Below are positions 25,937-29,220 of a stretch of DNA of 33,216 nucleotides, piece after piece. A program made the position numbers and the translations under genes. Origin of the DNA: Verrucomicrobiota bacterium (GTDB lineage Bacteria > Verrucomicrobiota > Verrucomicrobiia > Chthoniobacterales > UBA10450). The notes below the pieces were generated by a model. It was given only the letters and a program-made list of their open reading frames with translations, had not been told where the DNA came from and searched no databases. The stretch is taken from contig QHQO01000122.1 of NCBI GenBank assembly GCA_003221195.1, forward strand, positions 1 through 33,216. Reading direction: 5' to 3'. The number at the start of each line of letters is the position of its first letter. The stretch's first letter is position 1.

Positions 25937-26054
25937 GTTGTACGGTTGAAAAGTTACAAAGTTAAATAATCAAAACGAGCGACGCGGCCTGGTGCCGCTT
26001 AACCGTGCAAAAGGTTGCATCTCTTTTAACTTTTCAGCCTTTCAACTTTTTAAC
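25937..26054. repeat. Spacer A: GTTAAAAAG-type repeats in inverted orientation
   Basis: The left part (GTTGAAAAGTTACAAAGTTAA) and the right part (TTTTAACTTTTCAG, then CCTTTCAACTTTTTAAC at 26038-26054) are inverted versions of the same AT-rich unit, enclosing a GC-rich core with GCGGC-CTGGT-GCCGC. The rightmost copy overlaps the last codons and stop of sdhB, which therefore ends in Lys-Leu-Lys-Ser encoded by the repeat. Confidence 0.6.
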
Positions 26055-26794
26055 TTCTGCTTCATCCATTTCCAGATCCAACCGAATGGATCGTAAAAAT
26101 CGTCCACTACGCGTTCCTTTAGCGGGATAATTCCGTTATCGGTGATTTGAATGCTTTCGGGGCAAACCTTCGTGCAACATTTTGTGATATTGCAATAGCC
26201 GATCCCCTGCTCGTTTCGCAATTCATCGATACGATCCTCGGTATCGAGCGGATGCATCTCGAGCGCAGCGACGTGAATCAAAAAGCGCGGCCCAATAAAC
26301 TTTTCGTGCATCTGGTGGTCGCGCAGCACATGGCAGACGTCCTGGCAAAGAAAGCATTCGATACATTTACGGAATTCTTGTACACGATCGATATCCTCCT
26401 GCTGCATTCGCCATGTCCCGTCGGCCGCATCAGGAGGTCGAGGCTTAAATGGCTTGATTGTTTTTTTCACACGAAAGTTCCAGGAGACGTCGGTGACGAG
26501 ATCTTTTAACGTCGCAAAAGCTTTCATCGGTTCGATTGTCACCGGTTTTTCCAATGGAAGCTCGCTCAGTCGCGTCATGCACATCAGTTTGGGCATTCCG
26601 TTAACTTCCGCTGAGCAGGAGCCGCACTTACCGGCCTTACAATTCCATCGGCACGCCAAGTCCGGCGCCTGAGCGCACTGAATATCATGAACTGCATCGA
26701 GCACGACCATGCCCTCAGCAACTTCCGCGGTGTAATCGCGAAATTCGCCGCTGTTCGCGTCGCCTCGCCAGATCCGAAATGTGGCTGTCGCCAT
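26042..26794 (-). CDS. sdhB: Succinate dehydrogenase / fumarate reductase iron-sulfur subunit
   Basis: A 250-residue electron-transfer subunit. The plant-type 2Fe-2S cluster is bound by Cys52, Cys57, Cys60 and Cys72 (CKAGKCGSCS..LMC); the second domain has Cys144/147/150/154 (CIECFLCQDVC) and Cys201/206/207/211 (CNITKCCTKVCP) for the 4Fe-4S and 3Fe-4S centres. The sequence and the gene order SdhC-SdhA-x-SdhB resemble the Sdh1 type of mycobacteria more than the E. coli type. The start at 26794 and the stop at 26042 both abut copies of the AT-rich spacer repeat. It is separated from sdhA by a four-helix-bundle gene. Confidence 0.94.
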   Translation of the reverse strand: MATATFRIWRGDANSGEFRDYTAEVAEGMVVLDAVHDIQCAQAPDLACRWNCKAGKCGSCSAEVNGMPKLMCMTRLSELPLEKPVTIEPMKAFATLKDLVTDVSWNFRVKKTIKPFKPRPPDAADGTWRMQQEDIDRVQEFRKCIECFLCQDVCHVLRDHQMHEKFIGPRFLIHVAALEMHPLDTEDRIDELRNEQGIGYCNITKCCTKVCPESIQITDNGIIPLKERVVDDFYDPFGWIWKWMKQKLKS

Positions 26795-26807
26795 GACCGA
26801 AAAGTTA

Positions 26808-26828
26808 AAAGGTTAAAAAGTTGAAAGG
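26808..26828. repeat. Left copy of a perfect 21-bp inverted repeat flanking the four-helix gene
   Basis: AAAGGTTAAAAAGTTGAAAG plus G is the exact reverse complement of 27286-27306. It touches the stop codon of the four-helix-bundle gene (26829) and lies in the leader of sdhB. Further degenerate units (AAAAGTTA) precede it. Confidence 0.85.
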
Positions 26829-27284
26829 TTAAACAGTGTCTCTGAATTCATAGAGCAGTTCGTCTTCACCAGCAGATTCGCGAACGGTCAGCGAAGCTCC
26901 GGCTTTGCGCTCACGAAGAAACCGAATGTACCCGTTTATGAGACGCTGCACTTCTTTCGCTCGTTCCTTCAGCTCGACTATCTCGGCTGTGGGAAGGTAA
27001 TGCTCATCGTGACAAACATTCAGATCGTCTAGTAGTTCCGCGAGCGAACCGCGCGATTGAATCTGGAACTTGATTTCGTCGAGGTAGTGATAACGTCCGT
27101 GACATTCAGCGATATTGTTAGTCAACGAAACAGCAGCTCGACGGATCTGACGACCAAGTTCATACTTTTCAAAATCCGGGAGTTTCCGTGCAGCTGCGTA
27201 CATTCGTTTTCGGAATTCCCGAGCTTTTTGATAAACGTCGAGGTCCTCAAATGTTCGAAATGCAGCGTCCTGATGTTCTGGCAT
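26829..27284 (-). CDS. Four-helix-bundle protein of the S23 / 23S-rRNA intervening-sequence family
   Basis: A 151-residue all-helical protein starting MPEHQDAAFRTFEDLDVYQK AREFRKRMYAAARKLP, then GRQIRRAAVSLTNNIAECHG; FEDLDVYQKAREF and IRRAAVSLTNNIAEG-like blocks are hallmarks of the four-helix-bundle family found in intervening sequences of 23S rRNA genes, as free-standing genes, and related to the Avd accessory protein of diversity-generating retroelements. The ATG at 27284 fits the family start; a TTG at 27293 is also in frame. AAAGGA, provided by the inverted repeat, lies directly against the ATG. The gene is inserted between sdhA and sdhB and framed almost flush by perfect 21-bp inverted repeats. 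Molecular function unknown. Confidence 0.88.
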   Translation of the reverse strand: MPEHQDAAFRTFEDLDVYQKAREFRKRMYAAARKLPDFEKYELGRQIRRAAVSLTNNIAECHGRYHYLDEIKFQIQSRGSLAELLDDLNVCHDEHYLPTAEIVELKERAKEVQRLINGYIRFLRERKAGASLTVRESAGEDELLYEFRDTV

Positions 27285-27285
27285 T

Positions 27286-27306
27286 CCTTTCAACTTTTTA
27301 ACCTTT
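27286..27306. repeat. Right copy of the 21-bp inverted repeat
   Basis: CCTTTCAACTTTTTAACCTT plus T is the exact reverse complement of 26808-26828 and lies one base upstream of the four-helix gene's ATG, supplying its ribosome-binding purines. A further degenerate unit (CAACTCTTTAACTTCC) follows toward the sdhA stop. Its first 17 bases recur identically at 26038-26054. Confidence 0.85.
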
Positions 27307-27335
27307 CAACTCTTTAACTTCCCTAATTCATCGCT

Positions 27336-29147
27336 TTAACTGTTCTCTTCGATTACCCGTTTGAGATAGTCCGGCATTTCCGGCAACGGTTCCAAACGAA
27401 CTTCCATTGAGCCGTCTGCGGCTTTCGCAATCATCGTGTTCACTTTGGCAAACTGCTCGTTCTTGTCGGGATAATCATCCCGGAACTGCGCGCCGCGACT
27501 TTCCTTTCGTTCCAGCGCAGCGCGCGCGATCGCTTCCGAAACTGTGAGCAGATTTTTTAAATCGAGCGCAGTGTGCCATCCGGGATTGTATTCCCGGTTG
27601 CCGCTGGCTGCAGCCCTTTCGGCGCGCTTTTTCAAACCATCGATCTTCTCCAAAGCTTCGCGCATCTCGCTTTCGTTACGCACGATGCCAACCAAATCTT
27701 GCATTGTGTCCTGCAAATCCTTTTGCACCTGGTAAGGATTTTCGGCATCACGTCGCTCGAATGGCGCGAGCGCTTCACGCGCGACGTTTTCGAATCTGCC
27801 GTCGTCGATCTTGCCTAACGAATTTTTTTTCGCGAACTTCGCAGCGAATTCGCCGGCGCGTTTCCCGAAAACCAAAAGATCGGAGAGCGAATTGCCGCCC
27901 AGGCGGTTCGCGCCGTTAATTCCAGCGGCGCATTCGCCTGCGGCAAACAAGCCGGCTACGCGCGACATCTGCGTATCGGCATCCACCTGGACGCCCCCCA
28001 TGATGTAATGCGTCGTTGGCCCAACTTCCATCGGTTGCTCTGTGATATCGATGTCGGCCAGTTGTTTGAACTGGTGATACATACTCGGCAGTTTGCGCTT
28101 AATGTGTTCGGCCGCGTGGGGCAGCTTTTGTTTGATCCAGGAAATGTCGAGATGAACGCCGCCGTGCGGGCTTCCCCTGCCCTCTTTGATCTCACGCACG
28201 ATGCAACGTGAGACATGATCGCGGGTCAGAAGTTCTGGCGGCCGCCGCGCATCTTTACTGCCCTGACAATAACGCCAACCTTCTTCTTCGTTGTCCGCAG
28301 TTTGAGCGCGATAGTTTTCCGGAATCGCATCGAACATAAAACGGCGACCCTCCTTATTTGTCAGGATCCCGCCTTCGCCGCGCACGCCTTCGGTCACCAA
28401 AATTCCCATCACACTCGGCGGCCAAACCATGCCGGTGGGATGAAATTGCACGAACTCCATGTCGATCAGATCTGCACCTGCGTCATAAGCGAGCGCGTGA
28501 CCGTCGCCGGTGTACTCCCAACTGTTGCTGGTAATTTTGTACGCCCGCCCAATTCCGCCAGTGGCCAACACCACCGCTTTGGCGCGGAAAATCTTGAAGC
28601 GTCCGCGTTCGCGTTCGTAACCAAATGCGCCGACCACTCGGTCGCCATCTTTCAAGAGGGAAAGAACGGTGTGCTCCATATAGATATCGATGCCTTGGTG
28701 CACGCCATGATCCTGCAGAGTCCGAATCATCTCCAAGCCCGTGCGATCGCCCACGTGCGCTAAGCGTGGATATTTATGACCGCCGAAATGGCGTTGCAGA
28801 ATGCGCCCGTCTTTTGTGCGATCGAATACGGCGCCCCAAGCTTCGAGCTCTCGTACGCGATCGGGCGCTTCTTTCGCGTGCAATTCCGCCATTCGCCACT
28901 GATTCACGTATTGCCCGCCCCGCATGGTGTCGGCAAAATGCACTTTCCAGTTGTCGCGTTCGTCCACGTTTGCGAGTGCCGCAGCGATTCCGCCTTCCGC
29001 CATTACGGTGTGCGCTTTGCCTAACAAGGATTTGCACACAAGTCCGACGCGCACTCCAGCAACGGAAGCCTCAATCGCGGCGCGCAGCCCCGCGCCTCCA
29101 GCGCCAATCACCAAGACATCGTGTTCGAAAGTTTCGTAATCGGGCAT
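27336..29147 (-). CDS. sdhA: Succinate dehydrogenase / fumarate reductase flavoprotein subunit
   Basis: A 603-residue catalytic subunit. VLVIGAGGAGLRAAIEAS (11-28) is the FAD-binding fold; His46 in GKAHTVMAEGGIAAA is the likely covalent FAD attachment site; MEFVQFHPTGMV, VRGEGGILTNKEGRRFM, HYIMGGVQVD and GLFAAGECAAGINGANRLGG are the family's active-site and FAD blocks. The C-terminal helical domain has the usual length. It lies between SdhC (86-base repeat-containing spacer) and the inserted four-helix gene. Direction of catalysis (succinate oxidation versus fumarate reduction) cannot be told from the flavoprotein alone; the aerobic-type sulfur oxidation neighbours favour succinate oxidation. 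Confidence 0.95.
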   Translation of the reverse strand: MPDYETFEHDVLVIGAGGAGLRAAIEASVAGVRVGLVCKSLLGKAHTVMAEGGIAAALANVDERDNWKVHFADTMRGGQYVNQWRMAELHAKEAPDRVRELEAWGAVFDRTKDGRILQRHFGGHKYPRLAHVGDRTGLEMIRTLQDHGVHQGIDIYMEHTVLSLLKDGDRVVGAFGYERERGRFKIFRAKAVVLATGGIGRAYKITSNSWEYTGDGHALAYDAGADLIDMEFVQFHPTGMVWPPSVMGILVTEGVRGEGGILTNKEGRRFMFDAIPENYRAQTADNEEEGWRYCQGSKDARRPPELLTRDHVSRCIVREIKEGRGSPHGGVHLDISWIKQKLPHAAEHIKRKLPSMYHQFKQLADIDITEQPMEVGPTTHYIMGGVQVDADTQMSRVAGLFAAGECAAGINGANRLGGNSLSDLLVFGKRAGEFAAKFAKKNSLGKIDDGRFENVAREALAPFERRDAENPYQVQKDLQDTMQDLVGIVRNESEMREALEKIDGLKKRAERAAASGNREYNPGWHTALDLKNLLTVSEAIARAALERKESRGAQFRDDYPDKNEQFAKVNTMIAKAADGSMEVRLEPLPEMPDYLKRVIEENS

Positions 29148-29155
29148 GAGAAGAG

Positions 29156-29220
29156 GTTAAAAGAGTTAAAAGGGTTACACGTTAAAAAGGCAGACCGTTT
29201 TAACTTTTTAACATTTTAAC
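29156..29220. repeat. Spacer D: GTTAAAA-type units with hairpin before sdhA
   Basis: Several GTTAAAA units run in one orientation and then in the other. GTTAAAAAG (29181-29189) is perfectly complementary to CTTTTTAAC (29204-29212), and a tighter alternative pairs GTTAAAA with TTTTAAC (29198-29204) around GG-CAGA-CC. It lies between sdhC and sdhA. Confidence 0.55.

Follow-up and report, generated by a model that had tools for sequence, protein, structure and literature searches.

The four-helix-bundle gene that separates sdhA from sdhB in the genome studied here, together with the repeats on either side of it, probably constitutes a mobile or horizontally exchanged hairpin element, in which facing arms of tandem repeats enclose in their loop a gene of the S23 family (predicted to have the fold of Avd), and which is lodged between the genes of an operon. 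Our results further suggest that a hairpin element of this kind is widespread, occurring in several phyla, and that the intervening sequences (IVS) of rRNA are a special case of it. S23 (TIGR02436), also called "four helix bundle protein", is very common and has been described mainly in connection with inserts in 23S rRNA, and to our knowledge the family has no known function. We likewise know of no agreed explanation for the short intergenic tandem heptamers of many bacteria.

The window (the whole stretch of DNA analysed, 33,216 nucleotides long, to which all positions refer) comes from a Verrucomicrobiota genome, G000, of 3.1 Mb in 276 contigs. On its minus strand, sdhA (27336-29147; FAD_binding_2 and Succ_DH_flav_C domains) lies upstream and sdhB (26042-26794; Fer2_3 and Fer4_8 domains) downstream of an ORF of 151 amino acids (26829-27284, minus strand), which was assigned to the S23 family by PF05635, TIGR02436 and a structure model; the division of sdhA from sdhB by an S23-like gene had been proposed in the original prediction, and these domains agree with it. 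The same prediction had described 26808-26828 and 27286-27306 as exact reverse complements, one touching the stop codon and the other one base before the ATG. Both statements were borne out, the first by a repeat search and the second by the sequence itself. The perfect 21-bp repeat is, however, only the core of a longer pair, 26800-26828 and 27286-27314, of 29 nt with 93% complementarity; this extent had been missed, as had the construction of the arms from tandem octamers with the unit GTTRAARR. The facing arrays of this 8-nt unit were located at 26804-26833 (plus strand) and 27289-27318 (minus strand). A pattern for it (GTTRAARRGTTRAARRGTTRAA, up to 3 mismatches) had 10 matches in the window, compared with a mean of 0.00 over 100 dinucleotide shuffles.

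Sequence, repeat search and folding all define the same two arms. Read in the sense of the operon, the 5' arm (27286-27314, minus strand) is a purine-rich array and the 3' arm (26800-26828, minus strand) a pyrimidine-rich array directly 3' of the S23 stop codon, the TAA of which overlaps the array on its side. The terminus of the purine-rich arm reads AAAGG-A-ATG, the AAAGG preceding the S23 start codon lies within the stem, and by its sequence the repeat may supply the ribosome site, as had been proposed. The ATG of sdhB begins 5 nt past the stem. When the operon-sense RNA was folded, the arms paired over 29 uninterrupted base pairs in both the minimum free energy (MFE) and centroid structures and left the S23 ORF in the loop (z = -4.5 relative to 100 shuffled sequences), and the proposal that the whole unit of 499 bases could fold as a stem enclosing the gene is thus upheld. 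A known RNA family or an rRNA context for the unit was ruled out, since Rfam at its gathering thresholds gave no match in the window or at the ten S23 loci of the genome (L001-L010); a tRNA search of the window found none. Elsewhere in the window, between 124 and 14525, there are ORFs that by eye resemble an arsenate reductase, an ArsR-type regulator, an RND metal efflux system (three genes) and a copper P-type ATPase, which stand outside the S23 finding.

The S23 protein of the window matched PF05635 with 100.1 bits (cut-off 33.8; E = 1e-28) and TIGR02436 with 89 bits (cut-off 24; E = 2.2e-25). Its Pfam and NCBIfam matches comprised 23S_rRNA_IVP, TIGR02436 and two related hypothetical families, with bAvd (PF22296, 27.3 bits against a cut-off of 40) and Avd (NF033474, 26.6 bits against 80) below cut-off. 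With both Avd models far below cut-off, the accessory protein Avd of diversity-generating retroelements (DGR) was ruled out as the identity of S23. A structure predicted from the single sequence was poor (pLDDT 59), and an AlphaFold model made from a 53-row alignment was used instead (pLDDT 86.2), which predicted a four-helix bundle. All five Foldseek matches to this model at E ≤ 0.001 were to 2GSC (best E = 4e-7), followed by 2RLD at E = 1e-3; the Avd structures 8UB7 and 4DWL, which represent Avd both alone and in the retroelement ribonucleoprotein, followed at E = 5e-3 to 7e-3 with a probability of 1.00. As modelled, therefore, the S23 protein of the window has the fold of Avd. No known catalytic domain was found in S23, and three S23 proteins gave no match to the PADLOC models at E ≤ 0.001, on which ground a known anti-phage defence gene was ruled out. 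The dN/dS ratio of S23 was below 1 in all three usable pairs, and on this evidence the protein seems to be kept.

Copies of the same repeat families that enclose no gene occur elsewhere in the genome of the window. The GTTRAARR octamers form gene-free facing pairs at two more junctions of the sdh operon, as well as at other places in the genome. One, at 25937-26057 downstream of sdhB, has arms at 25945-25966 (plus strand) and 26025-26054 (minus strand); the plus-strand arm of the other, at 29156-29220 upstream of sdhA, is irregular and lies below the threshold of the genome-wide octamer pattern scan. The original prediction was right about the pair around S23 and had overlooked these two. Patterns derived from arms at two further S23 loci in G000 (GATACTG and GTGAGAAG) revealed the same dispersed gene-free hairpins. 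By a hand count from the listed matches, the three repeat families have 13 gene-free pairs with arms no more than 100 nt apart, all convergent, and three long-loop pairs, each enclosing an S23 gene and convergent like the gene-free ones; the remaining matches had no listed partner at that stringency. The original prediction had named, as evidence against itself, the same repeats around unrelated genes with S23 vertically inherited at the locus; what we found in all three families was that the close facing pairs were gene-free.

The S23 gene with its arms is no peculiarity of the sdh operon, but the common architecture of the S23 genes that we sampled. A search of the genome of the window for further copies of gene plus repeat, which had been suggested at the outset, yielded ten S23 genes, six of them with an inverted-repeat score of at least 26 and with repeat units that differ by locus. 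In a family sample, made up of best matches and of stretches fetched by place (82 of 87 distinct S23 loci scored), 67 of 82 loci had facing arms at this score, compared with 8.3% of mismatched flank pairs. Among genes other than S23 at these loci 22 of 270 reached the threshold, falling to 10 of 255 once S23 duplicates were removed, a set in which an ORF antisense to S23 is still present. We chose the threshold of 26 after seeing the scores; S23 genes also exceeded the controls at 20 (76/82 for S23 versus 67/270 for controls) and at 40 (25/82 versus 10/270). Narrower scoring at the borders of the profile domains, which missed arms overlapping the ORF ends and left S23 genes among the controls, gave 46/81 versus 31/338.

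Similar results were obtained with other samples, all of which, like the family sample, are best matches rather than random draws. Among named loci, selected for their similarity to a single part of the S23 family and taken as the best 80 of at least 528 relatives (one being too short), 64 of 79 reached the threshold, compared with 7.3% of mismatched pairs. Within these best 80, the counts by group were 27/29 for Verrucomicrobiota, 11/13 for Planctomycetota, 16/24 for Bacteroidota, 3/3 for Acidobacteriota and 5/6 for Proteobacteria, with single loci from the CPR (1/1), an apparently mislabelled bin (1/1), Chloroflexi (0/1) and Tenebribacter (0/1). In eight of the genomes that contain named loci, 22 of 30 S23 loci were at threshold, or 17 of 22 without the eight loci already among the named ones (one of these eight, L319, at the same place as L222, was wrongly framed in the set of 30). 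In the class of a Vreelandella genome, where 49 of 369 genomes gave matches and the best were taken, 21 of 25 scored S23 loci reached the threshold (mismatched pairs 6.5%), four of the 29 loci having been skipped as too short or with the frame missing. With the design recurring at S23 loci of several phyla, a local oddity of one genome was ruled out, and both the anatomy and its generality among S23 loci are well supported. Two genomes merit separate mention. In G083 (Vreelandella), the arms of locus L315 are very long, with S23 flanked by about 185 nt of facing AGTGGTG-like heptamers; and G087 (Acidobacteriota) has eleven S23 genes at E ≤ 1e-8, of which seven were fetched, with differing repeat units and six of the seven at threshold.

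The best period was 7 nt in 93 of 131 arms and 8 nt in 26. On RNA folding, a flank stem of at least 10 uninterrupted pairs was present at 120 of 162 S23 loci, compared with 15 of 166 control genes. At 131 of 148 loci the fit between a locus's own two arms exceeded the median fit to arms from other loci with the same repeat family (4 equal, 13 worse), as it did at 128 of 134 when the comparison was limited to loci with an own score of at least 22; pairing has therefore been kept while the sequence changed. Because at least five loci (L181, L182, L185, L199 and L203) are common to the family sample and the named loci, the pooled totals of 131, 148 and 162 count at least five loci twice.

A gene lying between two palindromes has complementary flanks too, but in that case the pyrimidine-rich arm comes first. 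The 5' arm at S23 loci was purine-rich in 122 of 131 cases (at half in six and below half in three), as is the left arm of the gene-free hairpins, and S23 therefore occupies the loop. Only 2 of 10 control genes with an inverted repeat had a purine-rich 5' arm, one of the two being the ORF antisense to S23. Thus, S23 lies inside the palindrome, where the gene-free copies have a short loop, whereas other genes with complementary flanks, including most of our controls, lie between palindromes, a second respect in which the pattern departs from repeats set around unrelated genes. These results bear on a simpler explanation, in which S23 is an ordinary gene and dispersed palindromes have settled in its intergenic flanks, as they do around other genes in these repeat-rich genomes. 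The octamer palindromes are indeed dispersed in the genome, and other genes do lie between two palindromes, as the 10 of 255 controls at threshold illustrate. Nevertheless, the difference in frequency (67/82 versus 10/255), the opposite orientation, the tracking of the S23 tree by arm type (see below) and the recurrence of this layout across several phyla, built there from unrelated repeat units, all argue against it, and we regard this explanation as most unlikely and already disfavoured.

The proposal that the unit may be an inserted cassette called for comparison of the sdhA|sdhB junction in relatives. We counted junctions where both sdhA and sdhB lay in a fetched stretch, which gave 63 from 61 genomes: 23 hold S23 and 40 do not. 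In 20 of the 40 the gap is closed to 10 nt or less. The other 20, judged by eye, comprise about 16 gene-free palindromes or half-palindromes, two intervals of about 800 nt with a different ORF (L054 in G057 and L102 in G011), one short fragment and one apparent decayed remnant, the 77-nt junction L060 of G069, where one heptamer arm is followed by sequence resembling the start of S23. Gene-free palindromes (CCACGGATTACACGG..., GTCATCCCGAGC..., GGGTAGCGCACGCG...) are found at the junctions of G051, G079, G063, G042, G074:C155, G078 and others. It is as if the sdhA|sdhB junction were a landing place for hairpins.

The occupied junctions have three types of arm, built from the octamers GTTAAAAG and GTTGAAGC and the heptamer GAATCGT, types having been assigned by word counts, with one of 22 labels (L043) a tie. 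In trees of the same 22 rows (one N-rich row was left out), the arm type changed twice on the S23 tree, which is the minimum, and seven times on the SdhB tree, which argues that S23 and its arms form one unit that does not follow the operon. Pairwise identities of S23 and of SdhB were scarcely correlated (r = 0.09), and starred sister SdhB lineages bear S23 genes of different clades and arm types (G016 versus G013 and G025:C12; G000 and G071 versus G070), and many other branches of the two trees are weak, stars standing on 8 of 29 and on 12 of 58. Synonymous differences were clearly fewer in S23 than in sdhB in two of three usable pairs (6/85 versus 37/157, p = 0.001; 13/54 versus 82/158, p = 0.0004), the third pair giving 42/81 versus 102/160 (p = 0.10). 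Nucleotide identity between the window and G071 showed no clear step at the borders of the unit and so gave no sharp cassette edges; the synonymous-site comparison, with its three usable pairs, is the only trace. In the trees S23 clade and arm type go together and not with the operon, and inheritance or transfer of S23 and arms as one unit is likely. From the trees and the unoccupied sites we infer movement of the unit, which agrees with the cassette first proposed. No transposition, target duplication or excision of the unit was caught, and recombination between operons could be an alternative route of spread.

An S23 gene that was ancestral at sdhA|sdhB and has since been lost on many occasions, its arms being renewed locally through slippage and gene conversion, would account for occupation of the same junction in several genera, for the apparent decayed remnant in G069 and for the evolution of arms as matched pairs. 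It is at odds with the sister SdhB lineages that bear different S23 clades and arm types, with the near-zero correlation of S23 and SdhB identities and with the lower synonymous divergence of S23 in two of three pairs. Strict vertical inheritance at the locus is unsupported by the trees, although both have many weak branches, and we find this history hardly credible.

Units are found at other junctions as well. For the 76 named loci with two mechanically called neighbours (from the best 80 of at least 528 relatives), the median gaps between neighbour ORFs and the matched part of the arm were 65 and 68 nt, and 54 of the 76 units lie in sense between two co-directed ORFs. Of the 62 units in this set that have co-directed neighbours, 8 run antisense to those neighbours, which is unexpected for a purely RNA-level element. 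Other sites, recognised by eye from the flanks, include nuoB|nuoC, cysD|cysN and response regulator|kinase. The closest relatives of the sdh S23 genes outside sdh (L073, L074, L081, L083, L087, L091 and L094) lie by eye at an apparent nuoB-nuoC junction, with GTTAC/GTTAAA-type arms, and L077 and L079 at a different junction that also appears to belong to complex I. There is also a second, distant complex II operon, with SdhB about 28% identical, in which an S23 gene of another subfamily lies beside sdhB; examples are G010:C302, G054:C220, G071:C221, G070:C6 and G020:C41, all five with GTTGAGA-type arms, and there are others.

This setting could also indicate a regulatory device of the host, with S23 and stem kept to set the ratio or stability of the neighbouring messages, for instance through a cut between sdhA and sdhB, and S23 acting as an autoregulator. 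Such a role would fit the position of units between genes that serve a single complex or pathway (sdhA|sdhB and, by eye, the three junctions just named), the 54 of 76 named units in sense between co-directed ORFs (again among the best 80 of at least 528), the placement of the S23 start site and of the region upstream of sdhB at the stem, and the dN/dS values below 1 in the three usable pairs. Against it stand the 40 of 63 junctions of relatives that do without the unit, the failure of the unit to follow its operon, and the presence of the same design at unrelated genes, sometimes antisense. We consider a regulatory device rather unlikely, and the mobile or exchanged hairpin element remains our preferred reading.

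How such an element might live between genes can be outlined. In the RNA the arms could pair, here over 29 bp, and hold the S23 ORF in the loop, which is the anatomy of S23-bearing rRNA intervening sequences. The double-stranded stem would be cut by RNase III, as in rRNA, or melted by ribosomes, and a position between operon genes would be tolerated because both neighbours would stay translatable. More speculatively, and by analogy, the S23 protein with its Avd fold might bind hairpins of its own repeat family and take part in their maintenance or spread.

We examined whether the repeats are more abundant where their cognate S23 is present. Among 83 genomes, at least five matches to GTGAGAAG were found in 11 of 20 genomes with an L002-type S23 (at least 66% identity, split genes included) versus 10 of 63 without (p = 2.2e-4; the unit's own arms included). 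Five of the 20 bearing genomes had zero matches, and six genomes lacking even a 42% relative had at least five. For a second type (GTTGAGA), the medians were 15 in 28 cognate genomes versus 6 in the other 55 (p = 1.6e-5), but the reversed control pattern gave a similar number of matches, the unit being almost a mirror image of itself, and this test is therefore weak. Both comparisons are raw, uncorrected for phylogeny, genome size or the unit's own arms, and repeat abundance tracks cognate S23 only loosely.

A broader proposal, to which we would give somewhat less than an even chance, is that S23 proteins are the dedicated partners of an unrecognised, phylum-spanning class of hairpin elements with facing 7-8 nt tandem repeats; the repeats would be specific to S23 subfamilies, the gene-free palindromes would be non-autonomous copies, and the rRNA intervening sequences would be those members that came to lie in rRNA. 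Should S23 genes generally reside in facing heptamer arrays, the S23 family and the heptamer repeats would be parts of one element, and an unexplained family and unexplained intergenic arrays would gain a common explanation. Dispensable, intron-like inserts would then be present in operons of central metabolism, those of complex II here and apparently of complex I in relatives, and the element's mode of life would be directly testable, through binding of S23 to its own hairpin, cutting of the messenger at the stem and dependence of copies on a cognate S23.

Among known systems, the 23S rRNA IVS of Coxiella burnetii shares this anatomy: its ends form a terminal stem of 28 bp, which RNase III cleaves, and it contains an S23 ORF whose ATG is preceded by tandem GACAGAT heptamers in strain-variable number (PMC4990558). 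The sdh unit resembles it in having an S23 ORF as the loop, complementary ends (29 bp versus 28 bp) and similar size (499 bases versus 428-444 nt), and both kinds of element are patchily distributed and presumably of horizontal origin (PMC4990558). The authors of that study concluded that S23 of the IVS is probably not made in vivo and is expendable (PMC4990558), a conclusion that speaks against the protein being necessary there. In CPR bacteria, the Pfam domain 23S_rRNA_IVP occurs in inserts of both 16S and 23S rRNA genes (PMC11270868). The sdh unit differs in lying between protein genes of an operon rather than within an rRNA gene, and arms of the sdh type are facing tandem arrays, with a unit that varies by locus and gene-free relatives scattered in the genome. 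Avd of diversity-generating retroelements shares the predicted fold (8UB7, 4DWL) and gives a weak profile match (NF033474), and the relation of PF05635 to Avd has been noted in print (PMC10053308); the score is nevertheless far below cut-off, and the neighbours of S23 here are sdhA and sdhB.

Other heptamer systems share the arms and not the gene. In the P6b stem of the cyanobacterial tRNA-Leu intron, a stem of 7-nt repeats stays paired as the class and number of repeats change, but it belongs to a group I intron within a tRNA gene, described with no S23 gene (PMC4476775). The TAACTGA repeats of Beggiatoaceae, cyanobacteria and others are intergenic tandem heptamers, often just before start codons, but they are direct repeats, with one inverted case in one genome, and "S23" and "four helix" are absent from the main text of the article (PMC4679880). 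The GGGAATC repeats of Xanthomonas are closer, being convergent pairs of 7-nt tandem arrays, mostly intergenic, with 70 in one genome and 75 in another; they were described without a link to a gene family, "four helix" and "intervening" being absent from the main text (PMC4692102). The S23 structure 2GSC is from Xanthomonas, and the exact GGGAATC unit was found in no arm among the 30 loci of the eight genomes and the scored loci of the Vreelandella class. Within the consulted part of the open-access literature (subscription papers and preprints lay outside its scope), no article joined non-rRNA S23 genes to facing heptamer arrays. The nearest functional analogy to S23 units is provided by REPINs and their RAYT genes, where dispersed inverted pairs of short repeats occur with a gene beside a cluster of the same repeat family, and several distinct families of repeat plus gene coexist in one genome (PMC3116915). 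S23 is a four-helix bundle with no known catalytic site, and not a tyrosine transposase like RAYT, and it lies inside the palindrome, with arms of tandem heptamers or octamers. The likeness in dispersal is matched here by the 13 gene-free convergent pairs and the three repeat families of G000.
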